This document shows positions 25,413 to 37,549 of a DNA stretch of 64,000 nt, one piece after another. The translations under genes and the position numbers were made by a program. The notes under the pieces are model-generated. The model was not told the DNA's origin and ran no database searches. It was given only the letters and a program-made list of their open reading frames with translations. This DNA is from Mesorhizobium loti (GTDB taxonomy: Bacteria; Pseudomonadota; Alphaproteobacteria; Rhizobiales; Rhizobiaceae). The DNA lies in assembly GCF_013170705.1 (NCBI RefSeq), contig NZ_CP033334.1, positions 992,001 to 1,056,000 on the forward strand. Reading direction: 5' to 3'. Position 1 is the stretch's first letter, and each line of letters begins with the position of its first letter.

Positions 25413-25428
25413 CTTACTGATTTGTAAG
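25413..25428. promoter_or_regulatory. proposed response-regulator operator a
   Basis: CTTACTGATTTGTAAG is an inverted repeat CTTAC-N6-GTAAG. A good -10 hexamer TATGAT (25447-25452) follows after 18 nt, so the right half-site occupies the -35 position. Related sites with the same 16-bp layout lie at 34011-34026 and 37534-37549. It is upstream of the membrane-peptide and glycosyltransferase operon. Confidence 0.6.
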
Positions 25429-25446
25429 AACCCGGCAAGGCGGCAG

Positions 25447-25452
25447 TATGAT
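25447..25452 (+). promoter_or_regulatory. probable -10 element of the glycosyltransferase operon
   Basis: TATGAT, five of six to TATAAT, 18 nt after operator a and about 80 nt before the first start codon. There is no good -35, as expected for a promoter that needs an activator bound at -35. Confidence 0.5.
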
Positions 25453-25532
25453 TGACGAGGCAGTGTCGCGCCTGAACCGCTGCGGCTAAGACCGTCCCAA
25501 GCCGAAAGCCTGTCGTGTTCCGAGAGGTGGCT

Positions 25533-25685
25533 TTGTCCGTACCGCGCAATATTCCCGTCCGGGCTGGCCGGTGGATCTGGATCACGACCGGCATCGCGTT
25601 GCTGGCCATTGCCTTGCTGCTGATCGTCATGTCCGGAAACGAGCCGATACCAGAATACGGCAGCCATCTGTTCTGGTTCTGGTAG
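25533..25685 (+). CDS. small membrane peptide, 50 aa
   Basis: Short gene not recognised as a named family. A TTG start at 25533 is preceded by AGAGG at 5 nt spacing. In-frame GTG codons at 25527 and 25515 are alternatives. The product has a basic N-terminus (VPRNIPVRAGRW), one hydrophobic helix at about 14-33 (ITTGIALLAIALLLIVM) and an aromatic tail HLFWFW. The stop is 7 nt before the GT39 gene, so the two are probably co-transcribed. It could be a small partner of the glycosyltransferase, which is inference. Confidence 0.62.
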   Translation: MSVPRNIPVRAGRWIWITTGIALLAIALLLIVMSGNEPIPEYGSHLFWFW

Positions 25686-25692
25686 CGCCCAC

Positions 25693-27312
25693 ATGCAGTA
25701 CGACGAGACCTGGCGAGGTGCCGGGGTTCCCACATGGTCCACATCCGGCGCGGCGTGCTCCTTTCCGGCGTACCCGATTTCTCAGATGGCACTTCTCGTC
25801 TTCTTCTTCCTGATCTTCAGGATAGGGCTTGCGTCGGTCATCCCACTTTCGATTGACGAAGCCTATGCGGTGGTGGTGTCGCGCAGCCACTCGCTTTCCT
25901 ATTTCGATCATCCTCCGATCGGCTTCGCGCTTGCCCGGTTCATGGCGGATATTTCCGGCTGCGAATGCCGGCTTTTGGTGAGACTTCCCTATGTGTTGCT
26001 CGGCTCCGCGTCGGCGTTGCTGCTGTTCGCGCTGACCCGATACGCCTATGGCGCCGTTGCCGCATTCTGGGCCGTGGCCTGGTATACGGTCGCTCCGTTC
26101 TTTCTTATTTCCGCCGGCCATTTCGTCGTTCCCGACGGGCCGCTTGATTTCTTTCTGCTGGCCGCCGCCTGCCTGGCCGCACCGATGCTTCTCGGCGCTG
26201 AAACCCGGTTTGCCCTTCTGCGCTGGTGTGCGGCCGGCGTCGCGCTCGGGCTGGCGCTGATGTCGAAATATCAGGCCGGTCTGTTCTGCATGTCCGCCCT
26301 GCTGGTCCTGCTGCTGACGAAGCCCGGACGGGACCAGCTTCGAACCGCCGGGCCATGGGTGGCCGGCGCCATTGCGACACTTGGTCTGCTGCCGGTCATA
26401 ATATGGAACGTGGATCATGCCTGGATTTCCCTGGCATTCCAGTCCGGCCGGGGTACCGCCAACGAAGGCCATCTCCTGCATCCCGGCAACCTTGCCGTGA
26501 CATTGCTCGGCCAGGCGCTCTATGTTTGGCCGCCGATCTGGCTGGTCGCCATGGCGTGCCTGTGGCGAGGCGCCTGGGCCGGCTCGGCAACGGATCGCTT
26601 CTTCGTGCTGCTTTCGGCGCTGCCCGTCGTGTTCTTCGACCTGATCGCCCTGTTCAGTGCCCACTCGCTGCCGCACTGGTCGATGAGTGGCTTCCTATTT
26701 GCCTTTCCGCTCGTCGGCCAATGGTGCGGCGCATTTTCGATGCGCAGGCGAACGCTGCTCATCGTGTCCATCGTTATCGCCGCCGCTGTCGTTCCGCTTC
26801 TGGCCACCGGGTTTGCGGTGCAGGCGACAACCGGCGCCTTGACCAGGCCATTTTTCCAGAGGGCGCCGAAGTTCGACGTCAACTGGCAGCTCGTCGACTG
26901 GTCCGCGCTGACGGACAGCAAGGTTGCCGACGAGATCAGGCGCGCCAACGGATATGTCGTTGCCTCGAACTGGATGCAGGCGGCAAAGCTTGGCTACGAA
27001 CTTGGCCCGGACATTCCGGTCGACGTGCTTCCTGGAGATCCGCGCCACTTCCAGTTCATGGACCGCAGGCGACTCGCCACCCAAGCCACCGGCTTCTTCA
27101 TCGGCGCCATGAATTTCCGCGACGACGAGGCCGCCCAGGAAAAAGCCTATCGCGACAATCTCGGCGGCCTGTTCGTCGTCGACGGCGACGCCCGGCACAT
27201 AACGCAACGGATCTCCGGATTTCCGGTCTTCGACATGCTGATCCTGCCGGTGAAGCGCGTAGCGCCGCCGCTCTCCAAGGCCGATGGGCAGCCGTCCGGG
27301 GGACAGCCATGA
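25693..27312 (+). CDS. GT39-family (ArnT/PMT-like) membrane glycosyltransferase
   Basis: Polytopic inner-membrane protein of 539 aa with about ten or more transmembrane segments in the first 380 residues and a soluble C-terminal domain. The first periplasmic loop has SIDEAYAVVVSRSHSLSYFD with the acidic pair (DE) expected for catalysis in GT39/GT83 enzymes, followed by HPPIG. Such enzymes move a sugar from a polyprenyl-phosphate donor to lipid A, a glycan or a protein. It overlaps the next gene by 4 nt (ATGA). With that gene it forms a donor-synthesis and transfer pair. The acceptor is unknown. Confidence 0.85.
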   Translation: MQYDETWRGAGVPTWSTSGAACSFPAYPISQMALLVFFFLIFRIGLASVIPLSIDEAYAVVVSRSHSLSYFDHPPIGFALARFMADISGCECRLLVRLPYVLLGSASALLLFALTRYAYGAVAAFWAVAWYTVAPFFLISAGHFVVPDGPLDFFLLAAACLAAPMLLGAETRFALLRWCAAGVALGLALMSKYQAGLFCMSALLVLLLTKPGRDQLRTAGPWVAGAIATLGLLPVIIWNVDHAWISLAFQSGRGTANEGHLLHPGNLAVTLLGQALYVWPPIWLVAMACLWRGAWAGSATDRFFVLLSALPVVFFDLIALFSAHSLPHWSMSGFLFAFPLVGQWCGAFSMRRRTLLIVSIVIAAAVVPLLATGFAVQATTGALTRPFFQRAPKFDVNWQLVDWSALTDSKVADEIRRANGYVVASNWMQAAKLGYELGPDIPVDVLPGDPRHFQFMDRRRLATQATGFFIGAMNFRDDEAAQEKAYRDNLGGLFVVDGDARHITQRISGFPVFDMLILPVKRVAPPLSKADGQPSGGQP

Positions 27313-28466
27313 ACCAGGCCACCACCTATCAGGACGCCCCCGTGGCGTTGACGGCGGACAGCGCGTTCCCCGTCATGCATGGTGGCCCGGAAGTGACGAT
27401 CGTCATTCCGACGCTGAACGAGCGCGCCAACATCGGCCTGCTGGTGGCCCGGCTGCGGCAATCGCTGGCGCGCATCGATTGGGAAGTGGTCTTTGTCGAT
27501 GACGACTCGAAGGACGGCACGATCCTGGCGGTTCATGATATTGCCGCTGGCGATCACCGGGTTCGCGGCATCAGGCGCATTGCTCGGCGAGGCCTCGCCG
27601 GAGCTTGCCTTGAGGGCATCCTGTCGAGCTCGGCGCCGATCGTCGCCGTGATGGACGGTGACCTGCAACACGACGAAACATGCCTGCCCGCGATGTTGGC
27701 GATGCTGCAAGGCGGTGAGGCCGACCTGGTGATTGCCAGCCGTTACGGGAGCGACGGCAGCGCCCAGGGCGGATTCACCAGGCTGCGGTCGAGCGTCAGC
27801 CGGCTGGCGACGTATCTTGCGCGTCTGCTGCTGAGAACGCCGATCCATGATCCGATGAGCGGGTTCTTCATGCTGCGCAGGGAAATCGTCGACGCGGTGG
27901 CGCCCCGGCTGTCGCGGCAAGGTTTCAAGATCCTGCTCGACATTGTCGCGTCTTCGTCAACCGCCATCAGGATCAAGGAAATCCCTTACGTGTTTGCGCC
28001 GCGGCTGCACGGACAGAGCAAGCTCGACTCCCTGGTCGCGCTTGAATATGCCGGCCTGCTGGTCGCGAAAATGTCGGGAGACCTGATCTCCACGCGCTTC
28101 CTTGCCTTTGGCCTGGTCGGGTCCGCCGGCGTTGTCGTCCATCTCGCGGTCCTGCATGCATTGCTGCCGCACGGCCTGTCGTTTGTCGTCGCCCAGACAG
28201 CAGCCATGTTCACGGCGATGGCCTTCAACTACACGCTGAACAACGCCTTCACCTATCGCGACCAGCGCCGGCGCGGCTGGCGGTTCCTGACCGGCCTGCT
28301 TATGTTCGCGGCGCTTTGCAGCTTCGGCGTCGTGGCCGGTGTCGGCGTGTCGACGCTTCTCTACAGCGGCCACTCACGCTGGTGGGTCGCCGGCCTTGCC
28401 GGCGCAATCGTGGGCTCGGCATGGAACTACATCACCAACTCCGCAATCACCTGGCGCCGCCAATAG
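27309..28466 (+). CDS. GT2 polyprenyl-phosphate glycosyltransferase fused to GtrA domain
   Basis: A 385-aa protein. The N-terminal GT2 domain (about 30-250) is like dolichol-phosphate mannose synthase: TIVIPTLNERANI, FVDDDSKDGT, and DGDLQHDET with the metal-binding Asp residues. The C-terminal GtrA domain has about four transmembrane segments (FLAFGLVGSAGVVVHLAVL, FNYTLNNAFTY). It would charge a polyprenyl phosphate with a sugar and help flip it. The start is the ATG at 27309, overlapping the GT39 stop. A much longer frame from 26226 reads through the GT39 gene and is rejected. Confidence 0.9.
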   Translation: MNQATTYQDAPVALTADSAFPVMHGGPEVTIVIPTLNERANIGLLVARLRQSLARIDWEVVFVDDDSKDGTILAVHDIAAGDHRVRGIRRIARRGLAGACLEGILSSSAPIVAVMDGDLQHDETCLPAMLAMLQGGEADLVIASRYGSDGSAQGGFTRLRSSVSRLATYLARLLLRTPIHDPMSGFFMLRREIVDAVAPRLSRQGFKILLDIVASSSTAIRIKEIPYVFAPRLHGQSKLDSLVALEYAGLLVAKMSGDLISTRFLAFGLVGSAGVVVHLAVLHALLPHGLSFVVAQTAAMFTAMAFNYTLNNAFTYRDQRRRGWRFLTGLLMFAALCSFGVVAGVGVSTLLYSGHSRWWVAGLAGAIVGSAWNYITNSAITWRRQ

Positions 28467-28575
28467 AGCGGTTCCCCGTTGCACGGAAACGCTTTATTTC
28501 CTTGCCTTGACGCGCGTCCGGACGGAAACCCGTTAGGCACTTTCCGGAGATTGCTCCAACCGAGGCCGACCACGC

Positions 28576-29127
28576 ATGTATCAATTCGACGCCGCGATCA
28601 CCGCCTGGATCAACACATGGGCCGGACATGCTTCGACGATTGATTCCGTGATGATCGGGGTCTCGACGGCAGGCGTGCCGCTGCTGGTGCTGGCGGTCGT
28701 GGCGCAGTGGTGGGTGCCGCGTGCCGATCCGGCCATCCGTCATGTCCTGATAGCGGCCGGTCTTTCTTTCCTTATCGGGCTTGGCATCAACCAGCTGATC
28801 CTGCTGTTCGTGCAACGGGTTCGCCCTTACGAAGCGCATGTCACGCACCTGATCATCGACAGGACCGTCGATTTCTCGTTCCCGTCCGACCATGCGACGG
28901 CAAGTTTCGCCATCGCGGCGGCCTTTCTTGTCCACGGCCTGTCCCGGCGCGGATTCTGGTTCCTTGCGGCCGCGCTGCTGATCGGGCTGTCGCGCGTCTA
29001 TCTCGGTACCCACTACGCCAGCGACATTCTCGGTGGCGCCGCGACCGGCTTTCTGGCCGCGGGCCTGGTTCGCCTCGCGTACCGGGAAAACACCCGGCTC
29101 GATCGGCTGGTCACTGGAATACTTTGA
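28576..29127 (+). CDS. PAP2-family phosphatase, possibly undecaprenyl-diphosphatase type
   Basis: A 183-aa integral membrane phosphatase with about five or six helices. The three PAP2 motifs are visible: QRVRPYEAH (around residue 79), FPSDHATAS (around 98) and SRVYLGTHYASD (around 139). PSDH instead of PSGH is the BcrC-like variant. It probably recycles polyprenyl diphosphate or dephosphorylates a lipid in the periplasm. It lies 109 bp after the glycosyltransferase gene, with a possible promoter of its own (TTGACG near 28507). Confidence 0.88.
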   Translation: MYQFDAAITAWINTWAGHASTIDSVMIGVSTAGVPLLVLAVVAQWWVPRADPAIRHVLIAAGLSFLIGLGINQLILLFVQRVRPYEAHVTHLIIDRTVDFSFPSDHATASFAIAAAFLVHGLSRRGFWFLAAALLIGLSRVYLGTHYASDILGGAATGFLAAGLVRLAYRENTRLDRLVTGIL

Positions 29128-29342
29128 AGGAGCCCGCCGACAGCTGTCGGGATCGCTGCCGGCGAACCTCGACCTTATGGATTCCAAGTGGCGCCGATAG
29201 CGGATTTCTTCATGGTCTTTTCCCGTTTTTGCTTGGTTGTGAAGCCGCCGGCCATTGGCCTTTCGGGCGGCTGAACGAGCCTAGGCCGTGGAGTTTTCGG
29301 CGGGCCGGCCGCGAGTTTACAGATAAGTAACCGACGTCCAGC

Positions 29343-31997
29343 TCACAGGTCGCGCAACTGTTCCGCCGCCCGTCCCGCCGATGGGCTGGCGGACCAAACG
29401 GCGGCAACCACCGAAGCGGCCACGAGGCCGAGCATGATCGCCAGATAAAGCCAGGGGATCGACAATGCCTCGGGTGGCGGATCGAAAACGCCGGTCAGCA
29501 GCTTGACCAGCATCCACGCCGTCAGCAGGCCCGAAAGCAGGCCAAACACCATACCGCCGACAAGGATCAGCAGACCTTCGCTCCACAGGAAGGCCGCGAG
29601 CTGGCGCGGCTTGGCGCCGATCGCGGCGAGGATGGCGAAAGGCCGGCGGCGCTCGAGGAATCCCAGGGCCAGCATCAGCCCGCCGGCGGCGGCGGCCATG
29701 ACGACAGCGAAGCCCAGTTCGATTGTCGTCAAGCCGCCGAGGTCGACCGCGGTCAGGCTCGAGCCGATGAGATGTGCTGCCTGGCCGATATCGACCACCT
29801 TCAGCGACGGATCGGATGTGAGCATCGACGAAGCCTGCCGCGCGAGCGCCGCAGGATCCGCCTTGGCGCGCATGAGCACGTATTCGGACGCATCGGAGCC
29901 GGTCATGCGGGCGACATAGGCCGAATTGGCGACAAGGAAGGAATCCTTGGGCGCGGTCGGAAATTCGCGGGCGACGCCGATGAACTTGAAGGCCACGGGA
30001 TGATACTGGTGATCCCTGGCATCGATGAGCCGCAAATTGATGGTATCGCCCTGCTGGAGCTGGAAATCCTGCACGGTCTCTTCCGACACCAGGACACCGT
30101 CTGGCGTCGCGGCGAGCAGGGCAAGCGTGCCGGCCGCGCTGGCGCCGCTGAAATAGACATCGGAAAGACTGGTTGCGTGTCCGATTCGGCTGGGGTCGAT
30201 GCCATAGAGGTCCTGCAGATCCGCGCCGACATAGGCGAAACGATGCTGCATGGGTTCCGCCGCCGCCGCGCTGGGCAGCGAGGCGAGAGCCGCCAAGTGC
30301 GTCCCTGCGGGCTTGTCCGTCGTGCCGAAGACGGTGACATCGGAACCGTTGGTGAGCTCGGCGTCGATGCGCGCCTGGGCATTGTAGGTGGTGTTGAAGA
30401 TGGCGGTCGACGCGGCGAAGGAGATCGCCAGCGCGGTCATGGCAATGCCGATCGTCAGCCGCCCCGATTGCCGCGACAGGGCGGCCGAAACAACGGGCGC
30501 CAATGTTCCCGATGCCGGAGCAACCGCCATGCGCAGAAGCGCGCCGTTGCGGGCGATGACCGTGGCCGACAGCCGGATCGTCAGCAGCGCCATGCCGACC
30601 CAGAACAGGGCCGGCGCGATGAACGCCTTGTAGTCCACCGCCGTTGCCGCCACGCCTTCGGGCGCGAGCACGACCTGGTATCCGGTGCTCGCCGACTGCC
30701 AGAAGAACAATCCCGCCGCCGCGAGCAACAGGATGTCCAGCCACAGGCGCTGCCACAGTGGCGCCTGTAGCCGGCTCACGGTGCGCCGCGCCGCGCTGAC
30801 GGTCGCCCAGCGCGCATCGCGCCAAGCCGGATAGAGAAAGGCGATGAACCCGACCAGCAGCCCGAGGGAGGCGACAAGAAGCAATGTCGGGCCGTCAACG
30901 CCAGGCGTTGCCTTGAAACCTGGTCCGATACCGGAAAGGAGCGCTGCGGCGGCCAGGCCAATGGCGGTTCCACCTATTGCCGCCATGGCGGCTTCGGTGG
31001 CGGACAGAAACAGGATGTCCTTGGTCGTCGCGCCGCGGACGCGCAGCAGCGCCTGTTCCGTGCGTCGGCGTGCGGCGCCGGACGCGGTGACCGCAAAGGT
31101 AAGCGCGACCGCCAGCGCGATGCCGGGCAACCCGAGAAACAGGAACAGCACGGAGGCGTACAGCGCATCCTCGCGGACCGCCCCGAGGCGCGAGCCGAGA
31201 TTGTCGGCCACGATCGCCTGGCCGGCGACCCTTGCCTCGAGATTGCGCTGGGCGTCGGTGACAAATGTATAGGCCGTGACGGGATCCGGCGGCAGCGCCT
31301 CACGGGCAAGCCGTACATGCAATTGCAGCCGGGTGGTGTCGGGGCGGGCCTTCTGCTGCGGATCGAACAATTGCCGCCAAATGTCCCGCGGCAGGATCAG
31401 GACATTGTCGGGCGGGGCCCGCGGCGCTGCCTGGGGCGGCAGGCCGACAGCCTGGAACAGGGCGTCGGCGTCCGGCAGGTCGACCACGCCGGCAATTCTC
31501 ACCTCCGCCGGCGGCAGGCCCATCCGCTGGATCGAGATGGTGTCGCCGGGACCGACATGAAGGTTGGCGGCTGTCTGCTGGGCAATCAGCGCGCCGTCAA
31601 GTGTGCCGGAAAGCGAGCGGATTTCCGCCGGGAAATCGCCGGAATACCGGCTGTCGAAAGCAACCGCCTGACCGGGGCCGGTGGTCTGGGTCGTATCGCC
31701 GGTCCGAGCCTCGAAGCCGGCGACGTCGGCATAGCGCACCTGATGCACGGCCTTGACCGGAACAGCTTGCGCCAGCGCCTTGCCGATGAGGTCCGGATCG
31801 GCACCGGGGATCACTTGCACCTGCCAGTCGATTGGAACCGCGGACACGGCGCGTCCGGTCATCGATGCACCGGCCCCGGCGAGGAAGAGCGACATCGTGG
31901 CCAGCAAGGCGACCGACAGCGCGATGCCGGCCGCGGCGCCGGCCACGCGCAGGAAGCGGCGGGCGAGCACACCGCGGATCCACAGCAGGACCATCAT
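29343..31997 (-). CDS. FtsX-like ABC transporter permease, 884 aa
   Basis: Large MacB/LolE-type permease with two FtsX-like blocks. It has an N-terminal helix (GIALSVALLATMSLFLAGAG) with a large periplasmic domain, three helices around 275-385, a mid-protein segment and second periplasmic domain around 430-740, and three C-terminal helices (LTTIELGFAVVMAAAAGGLM onward). Such permeases move lipids, lipoproteins or peptides out of the membrane by a lever mechanism. The start overlaps the stop of the ATPase gene upstream by 4 nt (ATGA). The substrate is unknown. Confidence 0.88.
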   Translation of the reverse strand: MMVLLWIRGVLARRFLRVAGAAAGIALSVALLATMSLFLAGAGASMTGRAVSAVPIDWQVQVIPGADPDLIGKALAQAVPVKAVHQVRYADVAGFEARTGDTTQTTGPGQAVAFDSRYSGDFPAEIRSLSGTLDGALIAQQTAANLHVGPGDTISIQRMGLPPAEVRIAGVVDLPDADALFQAVGLPPQAAPRAPPDNVLILPRDIWRQLFDPQQKARPDTTRLQLHVRLAREALPPDPVTAYTFVTDAQRNLEARVAGQAIVADNLGSRLGAVREDALYASVLFLFLGLPGIALAVALTFAVTASGAARRRTEQALLRVRGATTKDILFLSATEAAMAAIGGTAIGLAAAALLSGIGPGFKATPGVDGPTLLLVASLGLLVGFIAFLYPAWRDARWATVSAARRTVSRLQAPLWQRLWLDILLLAAAGLFFWQSASTGYQVVLAPEGVAATAVDYKAFIAPALFWVGMALLTIRLSATVIARNGALLRMAVAPASGTLAPVVSAALSRQSGRLTIGIAMTALAISFAASTAIFNTTYNAQARIDAELTNGSDVTVFGTTDKPAGTHLAALASLPSAAAAEPMQHRFAYVGADLQDLYGIDPSRIGHATSLSDVYFSGASAAGTLALLAATPDGVLVSEETVQDFQLQQGDTINLRLIDARDHQYHPVAFKFIGVAREFPTAPKDSFLVANSAYVARMTGSDASEYVLMRAKADPAALARQASSMLTSDPSLKVVDIGQAAHLIGSSLTAVDLGGLTTIELGFAVVMAAAAGGLMLALGFLERRRPFAILAAIGAKPRQLAAFLWSEGLLILVGGMVFGLLSGLLTAWMLVKLLTGVFDPPPEALSIPWLYLAIMLGLVAASVVAAVWSASPSAGRAAEQLRDL

Positions 31998-32677
31998 GCC
32001 GCGGCCGCCCCTGGCCGATGCCCGGTGGTGAGCCGGCCGTGATCCATCGTCCAGCGCGTTGCCATGCGGTTGGCCATGGCTTCGTCATGCGTGGCAACCA
32101 CCAGGGCGATGTCGGTGCCGTCCAGGCGGTCGAGCACGGCGTCGAAGAAGCGCAGCGCCGTTCGGCTGTCCAACTGCCCGGTGGGCTCATCGGCCAGCAC
32201 AAGCTTTGGAGCCATTGCCAGGGCGCGCGCCATGGCAATGCGCTGGGCCTGGCCACCGGACAGTTCCTCCGGCAGCTTGTCGCCGAGTTCGCCGAGGCCG
32301 AACGATCGCAGAAGCGATGCCACGATGTCGTTGGCGCCGGTATTCTCGCCGGCCAGCAGCAAGGGCAGACCGACGTTCTGGGCAGCGGTGAGGGCGGGAA
32401 ACAGGCTGGGCGACTGGAATACGAAGCCGATCTGGCGTGGCCTCAGGGTCTCGAACGCTCCAAGCCCCGGCCATCCGACGGTACCGGCCGTCGGCCGGTC
32501 GAGGCCGCCAAGAATATGCAGCAAGGTCGTCTTGCCGCTGCCCGAAGGTCCGACAAGCGCGATGCGCGCGCCTGAGGCGATCTCGCAGTCGACATCACGC
32601 AGCACGTCGATCCGGCCGGCGTTGCCATCCTGGAAGTCTCTCCCTAGGCCTTTTGCGACGACGAGTGTCTCAGCCAC
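31994..32677 (-). CDS. ABC transporter ATP-binding protein (first of two)
   Basis: A 227-aa LolD/MacB-type ATPase with all motifs: Walker A GPSGSGKTT, Q-loop FVFQSP, signature LSGGQAQR, Walker B LVLADEPTGQLD and H-loop ATHDE. The start is the GTG at 32677, with GGGAGG 7 nt upstream. An ATG five codons earlier overlaps that Shine-Dalgarno sequence. The start overlaps the preceding ATPase stop by 8 nt (GTGGCTGA), which gives tight coupling. Confidence 0.9.
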   Translation of the reverse strand: MAETLVVAKGLGRDFQDGNAGRIDVLRDVDCEIASGARIALVGPSGSGKTTLLHILGGLDRPTAGTVGWPGLGAFETLRPRQIGFVFQSPSLFPALTAAQNVGLPLLLAGENTGANDIVASLLRSFGLGELGDKLPEELSGGQAQRIAMARALAMAPKLVLADEPTGQLDSRTALRFFDAVLDRLDGTDIALVVATHDEAMANRMATRWTMDHGRLTTGHRPGAAAA

Positions 32678-33332
32678 GGTCGATCCTCCCATCCTTCAGC
32701 CTGATGACGCGATCGGCTTTCCGTGCCAGCGCCCTGCTGTGGGTCGCCAGAAGCGTCGCCAGTCCCGCGTCGCGTCGCGCCTCGAAATGAGCGATCAGCC
32801 GGGATTCGGTCTCGCTATCGACCTCCGCAGTCGGCTCGTCGGCGATCAGGATCGGCGGATCGGCGGCCAGCGCGACGGCGAGGCCCGCGCGCGCCGTCTC
32901 GCCGCCGGACAATTCGGTCGGAAAAGCGCGTGCGCGATGCGAAAGGCCGACACTTTCCAGCAGGCTGGCCGTCCGCCGGTCGTCCGGCTTCCTGGCCAGC
33001 AGCATCTGCAATCGTAGGTTCTGTTCGACGGTCAAGTGGCCGAACAGGTTTCCCGATTGCAGCAGAATGCCGAAGCTGGCGGCGCGAACGCGCGTGCGAT
33101 GCGCCTCCGGACGCCGGGTCAGCCGGACGCCGGCCACCTCGACATAGCCGCCATCCGGTTCATCGAGGCCGGTCACGCAGGCCAGCAAGGTGGATTTGCC
33201 GCTGCCTGAGGGGCCGACCAGGGCGACGATCTCGCCGGCGGCGACGTGGAAACTGACGCCTCGCAATGCGGCCGTCTCGTCGTCGCCGATATGGAAAAAA
33301 CGATAGATTTCATGCACGTCCACCGCGTGCAT
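32670..33332 (-). CDS. ABC transporter ATP-binding protein (second of two)
   Basis: A 220-aa ATPase related to but distinct from its neighbour. Walker A is GPSGSGKST, the Q-loop is ILLQSGN, the signature is LSGGETAR, Walker B is ILIADEPTAEVD and the H-loop is ATHSR. All are intact, so two active ATPases probably form a heterodimer under the single large permease. The ATG lies one base after the stop of the secreted-protein gene upstream. The four genes 33936-29343 form one operon. Confidence 0.9.
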   Translation of the reverse strand: MHAVDVHEIYRFFHIGDDETAALRGVSFHVAAGEIVALVGPSGSGKSTLLACVTGLDEPDGGYVEVAGVRLTRRPEAHRTRVRAASFGILLQSGNLFGHLTVEQNLRLQMLLARKPDDRRTASLLESVGLSHRARAFPTELSGGETARAGLAVALAADPPILIADEPTAEVDSETESRLIAHFEARRDAGLATLLATHSRALARKADRVIRLKDGRIDRG

Positions 33333-33333
33333 C

Positions 33334-33936
33334 TCATTTCCACCGGAACGAGTTGGACATTAGTTGCCACTGGTCGACATTGTCGGCGCCCTTGGGCGCG
33401 TAGAGTTCGAGTGCCACGAGCTTGCCGTCCTTGAAATAGAGATAGCGCTCATTCTCGAGGCGGACCTGCCGGTTGGTGACCGCGTTCGGTTCGGAGTTCG
33501 ATGTGTAGACGATGCGGATCGCGGCGCCGGCCGGCAGCTTGACCTGCTTGACGGCGCTCACCCGCACGGCGCGTCCGGCGGCTTCGAGCTTGGCGACATA
33601 GTCCGCCTTGGCGCTGTCGACGGTCGGCGCGGCATTGGCCCTGGAAACGGAGACAACGACGCCGTCCAGCTTGTCGACAAAGCTGGCGCCGTCGGCACGA
33701 TCCGATCGTGCCCAGCCCTCCGGCACCTTCAGGGTGAAGCCTTCCGGCGAGGTATAGTCGATGAAGACCTGCGTATCGGGAATGTCGCCCGGAGGGTTCT
33801 TCTCCGGCCGGATGGGCTTCTCGGCGGCCGAGGCCGGCAAGCAGCCAAGCGCCAGAACCAGACTTGTCGTGCCCAGGCACGCCGCGACCGCGAGTGCCGG
33901 CAGGACGCCGATGGCTTTCCGAAAGTGGGGAATCAT
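33334..33936 (-). CDS. secreted protein, first gene of the ABC exporter operon
   Basis: A 200-aa protein of no family I recognise. The ATG at 33936 (MIPHFRKAIGV) opens a signal peptide with a hydrophobic core to about residue 38 and a signal peptidase I-like site PASA/AEKP near residue 36. A cysteine in VAAC earlier in the core could be read as a lipobox, less likely. The mature part is a compact alpha/beta protein with EGFTLKVPEGWARSDR, reminiscent of PsbP/DUF-type lipoproteins. It may work in the periplasm with the exporter encoded next. Confidence 0.78.
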   Translation of the reverse strand: MIPHFRKAIGVLPALAVAACLGTTSLVLALGCLPASAAEKPIRPEKNPPGDIPDTQVFIDYTSPEGFTLKVPEGWARSDRADGASFVDKLDGVVVSVSRANAAPTVDSAKADYVAKLEAAGRAVRVSAVKQVKLPAGAAIRIVYTSNSEPNAVTNRQVRLENERYLYFKDGKLVALELYAPKGADNVDQWQLMSNSFRWK

Positions 33937-34010
33937 TTTCCACGGCCTTTCGATGGAAGGTGAGGTCCATCCAGTATGCCGCCGCAAGCTTACGGACGGG
34001 TCGCCAGTCC

Positions 34011-34026
34011 CATACGTTTTTGTAAG
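34011..34026. promoter_or_regulatory. proposed response-regulator operator b
   Basis: On the minus strand this reads CTTACAAAAACGTATG, matching operator c at 13 of 16 positions and the CTTAC-N6-GTA(A/T)G layout of operator a. Its near end is 75 nt upstream of the secreted-protein start. A weak -10 candidate (TAAGCT) follows at the same 18-nt spacing as at operator a. Confidence 0.6.
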
Positions 34027-34063
34027 TTATCGGCGCTTTGCAAGCTTTTGGCTCGCTGCGGCC

Positions 34064-35443
34064 TCAGGGCGCTTGCGATCTTACGAGTGGGAAGCTCACC
34101 ACAACGGCAAGGCCGGGCCGGCAATCGTCAAGGGCGATGGATGCCCCGTGCAGATCGGCGATGGCCCTGACAAGACTGAGGCCAAGGCCGCTGCCCGGGG
34201 TCGAGCGGCTGTGGTCCAACCGGTAGAGCCGCTGAAATACCCTTTCGCGCTCCTCCGGAGGAATGCCGGGTCCGTCGTCGGCGACGCTGGCGAGGACACG
34301 CTCACCCTGATGTGCCACCGACAATTTGATGGTCGTGCCGGGCGGGCAATGGCGCAGCGCATTCTCGACCAGATTGGCGAACATCTGCGTCAACAGTTCC
34401 CTGTCGCCGTGGATACGGTCTCCGCTTCCGTTCAATTGCGAGAACGATAGTACCTTTCCGTCGTCCTCGGCGACGTCGGCGTAGATCTCGGCCATGGTCC
34501 GCAGGATATCGTCGAGGTCGACATCGGTAAAGCGGGCCCTGCGCGCGCCGGCTTCGATCTGGGCGATCCGCAACAGGGCATCGAAGGTCTCGTTGATCTG
34601 ATAGCCCTCGGCGCGCGCATCGGCGAGGTCGTCGGAGACGTCCTGATCCCGCGCGGCCTTGTCGGCGGCGCCTTCCAGGATCATCTGCAGCCGGTTGAGC
34701 GGCGTCTTCAAATCGTGCGCGATGTTGGTGCTGACCTGTTTCATGCCGTCGACCAGGCCCGACAGCCGGTCGAGCGCCGCATTGACCTGGCCGGAAACCA
34801 TGTCGATGTCGTCGCCATTGCCGGTCAGCGGGATGCGCGTGTCGAGCCGGCCATGCGAGACGTCGACCATGGTGGCGGCTATGCCGTCGAGACGGCGCTG
34901 GACGCGCGAGGCGAGCAGGGCGCCGCCGGCGATCGCCAGCCCGGTGATGATCAGGGTTGCCCACCCGAAGCTCATCAGAATGATCGTCTCCAGTTCCTCC
35001 GTCTCGGACAGGCTGAAGGCGATGGTCAGATTGTTGCCGCCGACCGAACCGGAATAGGCGCGGTATTCGGTATCCGGAGGCAGGCCGGGCATTTCGGCCC
35101 CGAACATCGAAAAGCCGTCGGGAAGCTCCGCCGCGGTGAAGTTGCCGGCCAGACGGTTGCCGGCCGCGTCGGTCAGCGAAAAAAGCTGCTCCTTCCTCGG
35201 GCTGCGCGTGGAGTGGCTTTGGACGGTCTCCACCAGTTCCTTGAGGTCGTTGTCGGCATAGGTCGCGGCGATGACGGAGTAGGTTTCCTTGATGCTGTCA
35301 TCGAGCTGATCGGCAAGATCGGCGCTCATCATCTGGTAGACGATGGCGCCCGCCAGAACGAAGGCCAGCATGAACAGGAAAGCAAACGTCAAGGCGAGCC
35401 GGAACGGCGTGCTGCGCAGCAGGCGGGCCCAGGTTCCGGTCAT
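34064..35443 (-). CDS. two-component sensor histidine kinase
   Basis: Inner-membrane kinase of 459 aa. TM1 is at about 17-38, a periplasmic sensor region is at about 39-152, and TM2 is at about 153-178. HAMP follows to about 235. The H-box NIAHDLKTPLNRL holds the phosphoacceptor His243, and the ATPase domain has NLVENALRH, DDGPGIP and GSGLGLSLV. The start overlaps the response-regulator stop by 4 nt (ATGA). The periplasmic region is acidic (EMPGLPPDTEYRAY, SETEELE), which could sense cations or peptides, but the signal is not known. Confidence 0.94.
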   Translation of the reverse strand: MTGTWARLLRSTPFRLALTFAFLFMLAFVLAGAIVYQMMSADLADQLDDSIKETYSVIAATYADNDLKELVETVQSHSTRSPRKEQLFSLTDAAGNRLAGNFTAAELPDGFSMFGAEMPGLPPDTEYRAYSGSVGGNNLTIAFSLSETEELETIILMSFGWATLIITGLAIAGGALLASRVQRRLDGIAATMVDVSHGRLDTRIPLTGNGDDIDMVSGQVNAALDRLSGLVDGMKQVSTNIAHDLKTPLNRLQMILEGAADKAARDQDVSDDLADARAEGYQINETFDALLRIAQIEAGARRARFTDVDLDDILRTMAEIYADVAEDDGKVLSFSQLNGSGDRIHGDRELLTQMFANLVENALRHCPPGTTIKLSVAHQGERVLASVADDGPGIPPEERERVFQRLYRLDHSRSTPGSGLGLSLVRAIADLHGASIALDDCRPGLAVVVSFPLVRSQAP

Positions 35444-36123
35444 GACGCGAGCGGTGCGTGCAGGCTGTAACCGGTGTTGCGGACGGTGTGGATGAGCTGG
35501 GTTTCGAACGGCTTGTCGATCTTGGCCCGCAGCCGGCTGATATGGGTCTCCACGACACTGGTCTTGGGGTCGAAATGAAAGTCCCAGACGCGCTCCAGAA
35601 GCATGGTGCGGGTGATAACGCGGCCTTCGCCGCGCATCAGCACCTCCAGCAGGCTGAACTCGCGGGGCTGCAGGTCGATCGGCTGGCCCTGCCTGGCAAC
35701 GCGGCGCATGATGAGGTCCATTTCGAGGTCGCCGACTCGCAGAACGGTCTTCTGCTCCAACGCCGCGGGCCGGCGGCCAAGGGCGTTTATGCGGGCGAGA
35801 AGCTCCGAAAAGGCGAAGGGCTTGACCAGATAGTCGTCGCCGCCGGCTTCCAGCCCCTCGACGCGGTCGTCGACGCCGCCGACGGAGGTGAGAAAGATGG
35901 CCGGCGTGCGCACGCCGGCGGCGCGGACCGCCTTGATCATCGACAGGCCGTCGAGACCCGGGATCATGCGATCGGCTATGATCACATCATAGACGCCGCT
36001 GGTCGCCGCGAAAAGCGCGTCATGGCCATCGCGCAGGAGGTCGCAGACATGGCCGGCCTCGGTCAATCCCCTGACGATGTAGTCCGCCGTCCTGTGGTCG
36101 TCCTCGACAAGAAGAAGTCGCAT
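35440..36123 (-). CDS. OmpR-family response regulator
   Basis: A 227-aa protein. The receiver domain has the acidic pocket EDD at 7-9, phosphoacceptor Asp51 (VIIADRMIPG) and the conserved Lys in LVKPF. The C-terminal winged helix has LQPREFSLLEVLMR and HTVRNTGYSL, as in the CusR/CopR/QseB branch. These regulators bind inverted or direct half-sites near -35. I propose the CTTAC-N6-GTA(A/T)G sites at 25413, 34011 and 37534 as its targets. First gene of the regulator-kinase operon. Confidence 0.94.
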   Translation of the reverse strand: MRLLLVEDDHRTADYIVRGLTEAGHVCDLLRDGHDALFAATSGVYDVIIADRMIPGLDGLSMIKAVRAAGVRTPAIFLTSVGGVDDRVEGLEAGGDDYLVKPFAFSELLARINALGRRPAALEQKTVLRVGDLEMDLIMRRVARQGQPIDLQPREFSLLEVLMRGEGRVITRTMLLERVWDFHFDPKTSVVETHISRLRAKIDKPFETQLIHTVRNTGYSLHAPLAS

Positions 36124-36228
36124 TGGCTTATCCGGGTGATTGCCGATATCGGGGACAGGCTATCACCGGGACGGGTCCGTTCCTAGGACGGTCAGGGAAT
36201 GGCAAGCCACGCAGTGCATGCCGAAGCC

Positions 36229-37023
36229 TCAATCCGATTCCAGCAGGATCTCGTCGGCGTCGTCGGCGGTTCTCTTCAACGTCATGTAGAGAACCAGGGC
36301 GACGATGCAGCCGAGGAAGATCACGCTGGTAAAAGTGGTGCCGAAACCAAGGCCGCCATATTCGACCGGCTGCGACAGCAGGTCGCCAAAGGACGCGCCG
36401 AGCGGCCGCGTCAGGATATAGGCAAGCCAGAAGGCCAGGATGGCGTCCAGATGGAGGAGATAGTAGGCAAGCGCGATGAGCGCGATCACGCCGCCGAACA
36501 GGAGGCCCGTGGTCAGATAGCCCATGTCGAAGCTTTCCGCGACCAGGTCGCCGGCGGCGGTGCCGAGCGAGAAGGTGAAGAGGATCGCCAGCCAATAGAA
36601 GATCTCGCGCCTGGTCGTGAAGATGGTGTGGATCGAGAGCGTCCGCTCGCTGGCGTACCAGACCGCGAACGTCGCCGCGAGCACCACGCTGAAGGCAATC
36701 GTGGTGGTCTGCAGGCGCACGCCGAAATTGTCGACGAGGTTGTCGGTGATCAGCGTGCCGACGACGCTGATCAGCACCACCGCCAGCCAGTAGGCCCAGG
36801 GTACGTAGCGTTTCTGCGCGAACTGCAGGACAAGGGCGACGACCAGAACGCCGGTCATGATCAGCGATGTGGCGGTCAGCCCGAGCCCGAGGTTGACGGC
36901 CAGATAGTCGGCCGCCGTCTCGCCCATGGTCACCGCCATCAGCTTGATCAGCCAGAAATCGAGGGTGACATCCGGAACCCTGTTCTGGGCCGGCCCGGCG
37001 GGCTGCTTGTTGCTGGGGAGCAT
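36229..37023 (-). CDS. polytopic membrane protein, COG4705/DUF347-like
   Basis: A 264-aa inner-membrane protein with seven or eight hydrophobic helices and repeated helix pairs carrying DFWLIKLMAVTMGETAADYL and ITDNLVDNFG (the DUF347-type repeat). Acidic residues inside the helices (GETAAD, GTLITDN, GDLVAES, SFGDLL) look like a cation or proton path. The function of the family is unknown. The start is the ATG at 37023 after CAGGACTT. The frame extends further to 37164, but that part lacks family features. It is upstream of the two-component genes on the same strand. Confidence 0.83.
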   Translation of the reverse strand: MLPSNKQPAGPAQNRVPDVTLDFWLIKLMAVTMGETAADYLAVNLGLGLTATSLIMTGVLVVALVLQFAQKRYVPWAYWLAVVLISVVGTLITDNLVDNFGVRLQTTTIAFSVVLAATFAVWYASERTLSIHTIFTTRREIFYWLAILFTFSLGTAAGDLVAESFDMGYLTTGLLFGGVIALIALAYYLLHLDAILAFWLAYILTRPLGASFGDLLSQPVEYGGLGFGTTFTSVIFLGCIVALVLYMTLKRTADDADEILLESD

Positions 37024-37127
37024 GGCTGAAGTCCTGAGGTTGGTGGTCGTGGCGGGATGAAAGCGCATCGCGAGGGATTCATGCGATCCGCCCCTGTTCG
37101 ATGCATGTCTTTCTCGATCGCCCGCAC

Positions 37128-37150
37128 ACCCTCGGATGATCCCCGAGGGT
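37128..37150. other. stem-loop between the small secreted gene and the membrane gene
   Basis: ACCCTCGG (37128-37135) pairs with CCGAGGGT (37143-37150) over a 7-nt loop. There is no T-run in the minus direction, so it is a transcript-stabilising hairpin or weak terminator for the gene ending at 37168. Confidence 0.4.
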
Positions 37151-37167
37151 GCTTTGGACGGCATGGA

Positions 37168-37416
37168 TTACTTGCCCATGACCTTCATCGCCTGGGCGAA
37201 GAAGTCGTCGGCGCGCTTGTCGTCATCCGCGTTGCAGCGCTCGATGCCCTTGGTCTCCAGTTCCGAGACCCTGTTCTTGTCCGCGTCGTTGAGCTTGGCC
37301 GCCGCCTCCGCCGCGCGCAGTGCCTTCAGCGTCGCCTCGCAAGGCGCGGGGGCCGCGAAAACCGGACCGGATGCGGCGAGGAGGCCCAATGCGACCGCAA
37401 ACGCAAATTTTCTCAT
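37168..37416 (-). CDS. small secreted protein, 82 aa
   Basis: The ATG at 37416 opens a clear signal peptide (MRKFAFAVALGLLAASGPVFA) with cleavage expected after FA-A at about residue 22. The 60-residue mature part is helical and charged, with two Cys (about 26 and 61) that could form a disulphide. I do not recognise a family. Operator c lies 118 nt upstream in the orientation that best matches operator b, so it is a candidate effector of the two-component system. Confidence 0.72.
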   Translation of the reverse strand: MRKFAFAVALGLLAASGPVFAAPAPCEATLKALRAAEAAAKLNDADKNRVSELETKGIERCNADDDKRADDFFAQAMKVMGK

Positions 37417-37533
37417 GAAACCATTCCCTGTCTGATGCCGGTGGTCCGGCTGCCGTAAAATGAAGCCGGCCCCAAGATGGCGTGCTGGCATTCGAACGAT
37501 AGGGAAGCGACTTCACTCCAGCCTGTCCGGCGG

Positions 37534-37549
37534 CATACAAATTTGTAAG
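37534..37549. promoter_or_regulatory. proposed response-regulator operator c
   Basis: CATACAAATTTGTAAG, with a perfect 12-bp palindrome TACAAATTTGTA at its centre. On the minus strand it reads CTTACAAATTTGTATG, 13 of 16 identical to operator b. It lies between the small secreted gene (minus) and the methyltransferase gene (plus), 118 and 132 nt from their starts. Confidence 0.6.

Follow-up and report, generated by a model that had tools for sequence, protein, structure and literature searches.

A probable CopR-class two-component regulon of envelope genes in Mesorhizobium loti

The lipid-carrier and lipid A defence regulons of bacteria, among them Bce/BcrC, PmrAB and ColRS, place an FtsX-type ABC unit, PAP2 or UppP phosphatases or an ArnT-like transferase under a two-component system. 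Here we analyse a 64,000-nucleotide stretch of the Mesorhizobium loti genome (NZ_CP033334.1, positions 992,001 to 1,056,000; the window) in which genes of these kinds surround a sensor kinase and response regulator and follow a shared operator, although the regulator families and operators of those three systems are different. On the operator side the likeness is to regulators of metal response. The box published for AgrR of Cupriavidus metallidurans, ATTACANNNNTGTAAT, given also as ATKACANNNNTGTMAT, shares its TTAC-N6-GTAA core with the boxes of this locus and is likewise an inverted repeat of 16 bp, and extra in-phase direct half-sites at some operators, a weak or absent -35 and activation from just upstream of the promoter are described for it (PMC7380067). 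In the promoter of AgrR itself the centre of the box lies at -43.5, and in others slightly more upstream, compared with calculated positions of about -52.5 here and about -42.5 at the uppP gene described below, and the AgrR targets listed there are silver-, copper- and zinc-type genes (PMC7380067). For the LciR/CusR family, the published account gives a box, ATTACAAnnTTGTAAT, and two short conserved sequences before the -10; that family is copper-induced, and its neighbours are mostly metal resistance genes, with one effector gene in Legionella (PMC6989116). UzcRS of Caulobacter crescentus is, like the present system, alphaproteobacterial and has mostly secreted or membrane targets, and the motif reported for UzcR, CATTAC-N6-TTAA, lies 43 or 53 bp upstream of the transcription start, a notable match to the -42.5 and -52.5 calculated here; it differs in being described as a global regulon of 57 chromatin immunoprecipitation regions that responds to uranium, zinc and copper (PMC8963506, PMC12864828). 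The window regulator is not evidently UzcR, its clade in our tree holding no rows from the Caulobacter or Phenylobacterium genome searched and no row of the tree being assigned to UzcR. We found no description in the literature of the present gene set under a CopR-class switch; the mechanism is that of a known regulator class, and the gene content and a decayed fourth target are new details.

We think it likely that the locus is a self-activating CopR-class two-component regulon that governs a small envelope set rich in undecaprenyl-phosphate recycling and sugar transfer. An earlier note, made from the window sequence, had drawn attention to a 16-bp inverted repeat at three places. A scan of the whole window finds CTTACNNNNNNGTAWG exactly there and nowhere else (sites a, b and c; Table 1), compared with a mean of 0.03 matches in 100 dinucleotide shuffles, and the count of 13 shared bases out of 16 between sites b and c is correct. 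The list was nevertheless incomplete, as a fourth TTAC-N6-GTAA at 29317-29330 (site d) has the same promoter layout. When sites a to c are aligned towards their genes they read CTTAC-N6-GTAWG-N6-(GCAAG/GCGAC/GACAG)-N6-(GTATG/GTAAG/GTGAA)-N10-TAnnnT, so that the inverted repeat is followed by two further half-sites, direct and in phase with an 11-bp period. Judging by the published in-phase half-sites of AgrR and the two short elements of LciR, an array of this kind seems to be characteristic of the regulator class, and the TTAC-N6-GTAA repeat with in-phase half-sites expected before the targets of a CopR-class regulator is present here. The -10 elements of b and c lie 32 nt after the 16-mer, a spacing shared by most boxes of other loci, and that of a most probably does the same. 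The earlier note had instead taken as -10 a TATGAT that does start 18 nt after site a, with the operator covering the -35; this hexamer overlaps the third half-site and is probably not the -10. Placing the -10 hexamer at -12 to -7 would put the centre of the repeat near -52.5 at all three sites. The start codons at 33936 (secreted protein) and 37416 (small secreted protein) fit promoters so placed.

The array is conserved and is specific to its offset. In a 21-row alignment of site c, half-sites 2 and 3 are conserved at 0.90-1.00, the inner six bases of the inverted repeat at 0.81-1.00 and the -10 at 0.95 (T), 0.90 (A) and 0.90 (last T), compared with averages of 0.75-0.80 in the spacers between elements, 0.62-0.77 upstream and 0.58 downstream. 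A five-point array score, counting the G and A of both half-sites and the YA of the -10, gives 4, 5, 5 and 4 for sites a, b, c and d towards their genes; random window positions reach 4 in 0.6% of cases. We applied it to 33 boxes that lie outside called open reading frames (ORFs), at most 450 nt from a called start and with outer bases C/T and G/A, drawn from 16 loci (15 of other genera and one Mesorhizobium metagenome-assembled genome), and used 24 shifted offsets under the same best-of-two orientation rule as a control. A score of at least 4 was reached by 24 boxes at the true offset versus 0-5 at shifted offsets, the highest of these counts (5) sitting one repeat period away. In sets whose arrays had not been viewed before, the corresponding counts were 6 of 12 (0-3 at other offsets) and 6 of 11 (0-1), and in a further unviewed set from other classes and phyla 10 of 62 boxes scored at least 4 versus 0-2 at other offsets. 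Scored in its two directions, site c faces the small secreted gene with a full array and the methyltransferase side (a PEMT-like protein also among the neighbours) with a score of 1 of 5 and no array; of the two targets suggested for it, the first is upheld and the second is not. The kinase and regulator do lie between the units, as had been said, but they are themselves the final genes of the unit that follows site c.

Conservation of the sites was assessed in the neighbourhood of the regulator, over as much as 18.7 kb, in 25 further family genomes (including one from the same genus) and 20 more genomes of the genus, a site being counted as kept at no more than one mismatch to TTAC-N6-GTAA. 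This yields 21 same-genus loci, out of 43 other genomes that gave a match, chosen mostly for high identity. The expectation that the 16-mers would be conserved upstream of orthologues was borne out: site c is retained in 20 of the 21 loci (L040, L181-L200), including L192, which lacks DUF347, and the site b box is present in every locus that shows the secreted-protein/ABC cassette (L040, L181, L184, L042, L051 and plasmid locus L276). Site a reads CTTACCGATTTGTAAG in L040, L181, L185 and L196, ends in A in L197 and reads CTTACAAATTTGTAAG in L193. It accompanies the glycosyltransferase genes in L185 and L193 and the small ORF alone in L040, L181 and L197; in L196 neither was detected. The glycosyltransferase genes behind site a are variable cargo, and homologues of the small ORF are preceded by a box in all five loci where they were found, the window counted. 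Further afield, boxes are found in Thalassospira (L074) upstream of DUF347 as well as between the regulator and a PAP2-like gene, and Rhodobacter (L075) has a single box between a divergent small gene-DUF347 pair and the regulator. Outside the genus sample, 15 loci have a regulator of 69% identity or more (L041-L052 and L073-L075); 14 of these, all but L044, contain DUF347, as opposed to none of 33 more distant regulator loci, of which some are short contigs. Nearly all of the closest DUF347 proteins bear Mesorhizobium names, and so does the nearest named regulator locus. The 16-mers at sites a to c are real and, judged by their conservation, functional.

Table 1. Features of the locus (positions are those of the window)
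Feature	Position	Strand	Basis or remark
Site a, CTTAC-N6-GTAAG	25413..25428	+	pattern match
Array a, half-sites 2 and 3, GCAAG-N6-GTATG	25435..25450	+	alignment, array score
Predicted -10 of promoter a, CAGTGT	25461..25466	+	shared spacing; surer at b and c
Small ORF, 50 aa, one hydrophobic stretch	25533..25685	+	first gene behind site a; no Pfam family
PMT_2/ArnT-like glycosyltransferase	25693..27312	+	PF13231; start uncertain, perhaps 25786
GT2 glycosyltransferase with GtrA/DPMS membrane domain	27309..28466	+	PF00535, PF04138
PAP2 phosphatase	28576..29127	+	Pfam; nearest NCBIfam undecaprenyl-diphosphate phosphatase PRK11837, 75 bits (cut-off 229)
DUF1344 gene remnant, 12 codons	29175..29213	-	comparison with intact relatives
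Site d, box and array (4/5), TAGGCT at 29283-29278	29316..29331	-	array score
MacB/FtsX-type permease	29343..31997	-	PF02687, PF12704
ABC ATPase	31994..32692	-	Pfam
Second ABC ATPase	32670..33332	-	Pfam
Secreted protein, 200 aa from ATG 33936	33334..33936	-	no Pfam family above cut-off
Predicted -10 of promoter b, CATACT	33973..33978	-	array score
Array b, half-sites 2 and 3, GCGAC-N6-GTAAG	33989..34004	-	alignment, array score
Site b, CTTACAAAAACGTATG, facing the secreted-protein/ABC operon	34011..34026	-	pattern match
Sensor histidine kinase, HAMP/HisKA/HATPase	34064..35443	-	Pfam; best NCBIfam TIGR01386, 182 bits (cut-off 293)
Response regulator, CopR/CusR/HprR class	35440..36123	-	best NCBIfam TIGR01387, 256 bits (cut-off 279)
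DUF347 (COG4705) membrane protein, 8 predicted helices	36229..37023	-	PF03988, E 7.8e-57
Small secreted protein	37168..37416	-	no family found
Predicted -10 of promoter c, TATCGT	37496..37501	-	21-row conservation
Array c, half-sites 2 and 3, GACAG-N6-GTGAA	37512..37527	-	0.90-1.00 in 21 rows
Site c, CTTACAAATTTGTATG, facing the small secreted gene-DUF347-regulator-kinase operon	37534..37549	-	pattern match

Site d is shared with L040, L181 and L184, in which a gene for an 84-aa secreted DUF1344 protein (PF07076, E 2.6e-12) follows it; downstream of it in the window only the 12-codon remnant is left. Among the loci searched, intact DUF1344 genes occur in these three and in L193, L197 and L051, and all six have a box before the gene, that of L051 with one mismatch. 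Boxes behind the kinase in L193 and L197 that had looked orphan are accounted for by the DUF1344 gene there. L040, L181 and L184 do not have the PMT-GT2-PAP2 block. An intact gene in relatives without that block suggests that DUF1344 may have been lost when the block arrived.

The system also travels on plasmids, for which we considered seven annotated loci out of 291 records with a match. DUF347 is confirmed by Pfam in L270, L271, L273, L275 and L276, is assumed in L272 from size and position, and was not seen in plasmid locus L274. On the M. loti 582 plasmid, units b, c and d stand in one row, each with an array score of 5. Array scores are 3-5 for the plasmid boxes in front of the small gene-DUF347 pair and again 3-5 for those before the regulator where present; L272 has none directly before the regulator. 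Annotated PAP2 and UppP genes lie nearby on the Rhizobium L51/94 and R. rhododendri plasmids, GT2 and GT39 genes on that of Rhizobium CCGE532 and zinc transport genes on that of S. numidicum. In two Agrobacterium plasmids (L271, L272) the system adjoins genes annotated as EptA (lipid A phosphoethanolamine transferase), DgkA (diacylglycerol kinase) and PAP2, a set familiar from polymyxin-type resistance. The gene content common to the plasmids points to envelope lipids, and DUF347 neighbours UppP or PAP2 genes in L048, L050, L051, L270 and L275.

Outside the window, a box lies 75 bp upstream of an accessory uppP, which would extend the regulon. No exact box lies near the other uppP of the genome. 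Across 61 genomes of the genus there are 46 copies of the accessory uppP in 45 genomes, 43 of them with a box (no more than one mismatch) at -89 to -124 amid diverged flanks; orthologues in two other genera have no box. In most rows of these promoters a conserved TA follows about 22 nt after the box, which puts the box centre near -42.5. A phosphodiesterase gene present in five of the 61 genomes has box and array in the source genome, and four of the five copies, its own included, have the box.

Several observations weigh against a regulon defined by these boxes and owned by the local regulator. The bare 16-mer occurs at 12 places in 6.87 Mb, three of them in the window, with no clear enrichment over the reversed control pattern (7 and 8 strand matches), and TTAC-N6-GTAA occurs at 18 places versus 40 for its control. 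The specificity first demanded of the pattern is therefore shown by the array and not by the bare 16-mer, the frequency of which is uninformative, and the case must rest on clustering, position, architecture and conservation. Were the 16-mers chance palindromes, terminators or repeat debris with no regulatory role, the lack of clear enrichment and the 22-bp repeat-like stretch shared by two distal sites would be expected; the shuffles, the conservation and the fixed array make this explanation scarcely credible. The two distal matches (L036 and L037, at about 4646556 and 5069496 of the genome) are identical over 22 bases, CTTACGAATCCGTAAGTCGCGC, have neither an array nor a called gene start close by and may be a small repeat. 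As to the array itself, the score was set only after the listing of the 33 sites had been viewed, and nine of the 33 boxes are without it. The sole locus to miss site c, L195, shows neither DUF347 nor a box within 2.5 kb before its contig ends. In the seven plasmid loci, the PAP2, EptA and glycosyltransferase genes have no array-bearing box, L272 offering one array-less, one-mismatch match between EptA and an ABC gene, and the upstream side of a plasmid uppP is visible only in L275, where the box is absent.

The remaining points concern ownership of the boxes, and the first of them favours the local regulator. Accessory uppP and the regulator (E <= 1e-90) are both present in 39 of the 61 genomes, with 5 holding the regulator only, 6 uppP only and 11 neither, a co-occurrence (Fisher p=7e-5) calculated with shared ancestry ignored. 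Of the six genomes that have accessory uppP but are regulator-less, five retain the box, which weakens the case for exclusive control by the local regulator, and a 53-56% match, taken by identity alone as a paralogue of the class, is present in every one of the 17 regulator-less genomes and may serve the uppP box. It is conceivable on these grounds that a different regulator of the class owns some or all of the boxes, for example the 55% paralogue linked to DegP and glnE, the local system being a newcomer that taps them; in other bacteria members of the class, HprR and CusR, share boxes (PMC8249747). Such an arrangement seems improbable to us, as boxes cluster round the local regulator across genera, Thalassospira and Rhodobacter included, and the paralogue's own 13-kb stretch holds no box with one mismatch or fewer. 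That paralogue (L065, genome positions 5508689-5509357) is linked to degP-like and glnE-like genes, and matches of about 55% are the best regulator match in most other genomes of the family. In the regulator tree L065 groups with L026, L028 and L029, next to the Caulobacter/Phenylobacterium rows L263 and L260, which are also beside degP-like genes.

The window regulator combines a receiver domain (PF00072) with a winged helix (PF00486), and its NCBIfam ranking is headed by the heavy-metal model TIGR01387 (under the curated cut-off), with the copper/silver regulator and HprR models next in line. By these profiles it is a member of the CopR/CusR/HprR class within the OmpR family, and for this narrower class the inverted repeat is the expected operator, a reading supported by the match of the class to the published AgrR and LciR boxes (PMC7380067, PMC6989116). 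In a tree of 83 regulator rows, the window clade comprises 28 (support 99/86). The class of regulator and kinase also invites the explanation that the locus detoxifies metal: a toxic metal would be sensed as by CopRS, CzcRS, AgrRS and UzcRS, and the products would export or precipitate it, with DUF347 as exporter, the phosphatases releasing phosphate and DUF1344 as a CusF-like periplasmic binder. A similar DUF347-UppP pairing is reported from lead-induced Frankia operons and proposed there to be an export-precipitation system (PMC4531530); DUF1344 matches CusF weakly (E 3e-4, below the cut-off); and two plasmid cassettes adjoin FetAB- or Azt-type metal transport genes. Against this, residues 1-180 of 37 aligned kinases hold no Cys, His or Met column at 80% or more (His77 occurs in 26 of 37), so that a classical soft-metal site is not evident, carboxylate ligands being possible; the Pfam families of the window units include no metal efflux or oxidase gene behind a box; and the GT2, PMT and ABC-FtsX units would be left unexplained. 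We regard metal detoxification as a possible but unlikely function of the locus.

For the self-activating envelope regulon that we favour, the mechanism may be drawn as follows. The kinase would phosphorylate the CopR/CusR/HprR-class regulator, which would bind CTTAC-N6-GTAWG together with the two in-phase direct half-sites downstream and recruit RNA polymerase to the TAnnnT -10 located 32 nt after the 16-mer, acting as an activator rather than a repressor. Sites, array, conservation and regulator class can be read directly from the sequences compared; binding and activation are what we infer from them. Activation of promoter a would yield the small membrane peptide, the glycosyltransferases and PAP2; of promoter b, the secreted protein, two ABC ATPases and FtsX-type permease; and of promoter c, the small secreted protein, DUF347 and the regulator and kinase, resulting in positive autoregulation. 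Promoter d would be activated in front of a DUF1344 gene that is now a remnant, and the accessory uppP elsewhere would come under the same control. The earlier proposal of an envelope regulon under the locus's own two-component system most probably stands, with its details corrected, given conserved sites before envelope and secreted products. Its further suggestions of lipid export and of a single stimulus for the regulon are conceivable extensions. The output may be to restock or protect undecaprenyl-phosphate-dependent envelope synthesis under surface stress. A more specific idea, which we consider doubtful, is a dedicated undecaprenyl-phosphate supply regulon of alphaproteobacteria, in which a CopR-class system has moved beyond metal control to sense, at the inner membrane, that the lipid carrier is in short supply or blocked. 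If true, the answer to that signal would consist of the accessory UppP, PAP2, the FtsX-type ABC unit, the glycosyltransferases and DUF347, the last as a lipid-carrier protein of unknown kind, and the system, resting on a metal-class regulator, would represent a Gram-negative equivalent of carrier defence of the bacitracin type. In any event, an uncharacterised and sometimes plasmid-borne two-component system of rhizobia and their relatives gains a testable regulon with an exact promoter grammar, and the widespread membrane family of unknown function DUF347 becomes linked to undecaprenyl-pyrophosphate phosphatases and PAP2 genes in Alphaproteobacteria.

Some minor observations complete the description of the locus and its surroundings. 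The PMT_2/ArnT-like protein matches PRK13279 at 19 bits, far under the cut-off. A structure model of DUF347 has eight helices (predicted local distance difference test 80, from a 16-row alignment) and only weak matches. A different palindrome, CTTACGTWWACGTAAG or near it, was a single-copy match in many of the 121 genomes of the family that were scanned, among the matches listed; in the source genome it lies at 5486065-5486080 (L038), where a gene follows after 53 bp whose 113-aa product begins with a signal-like sequence.

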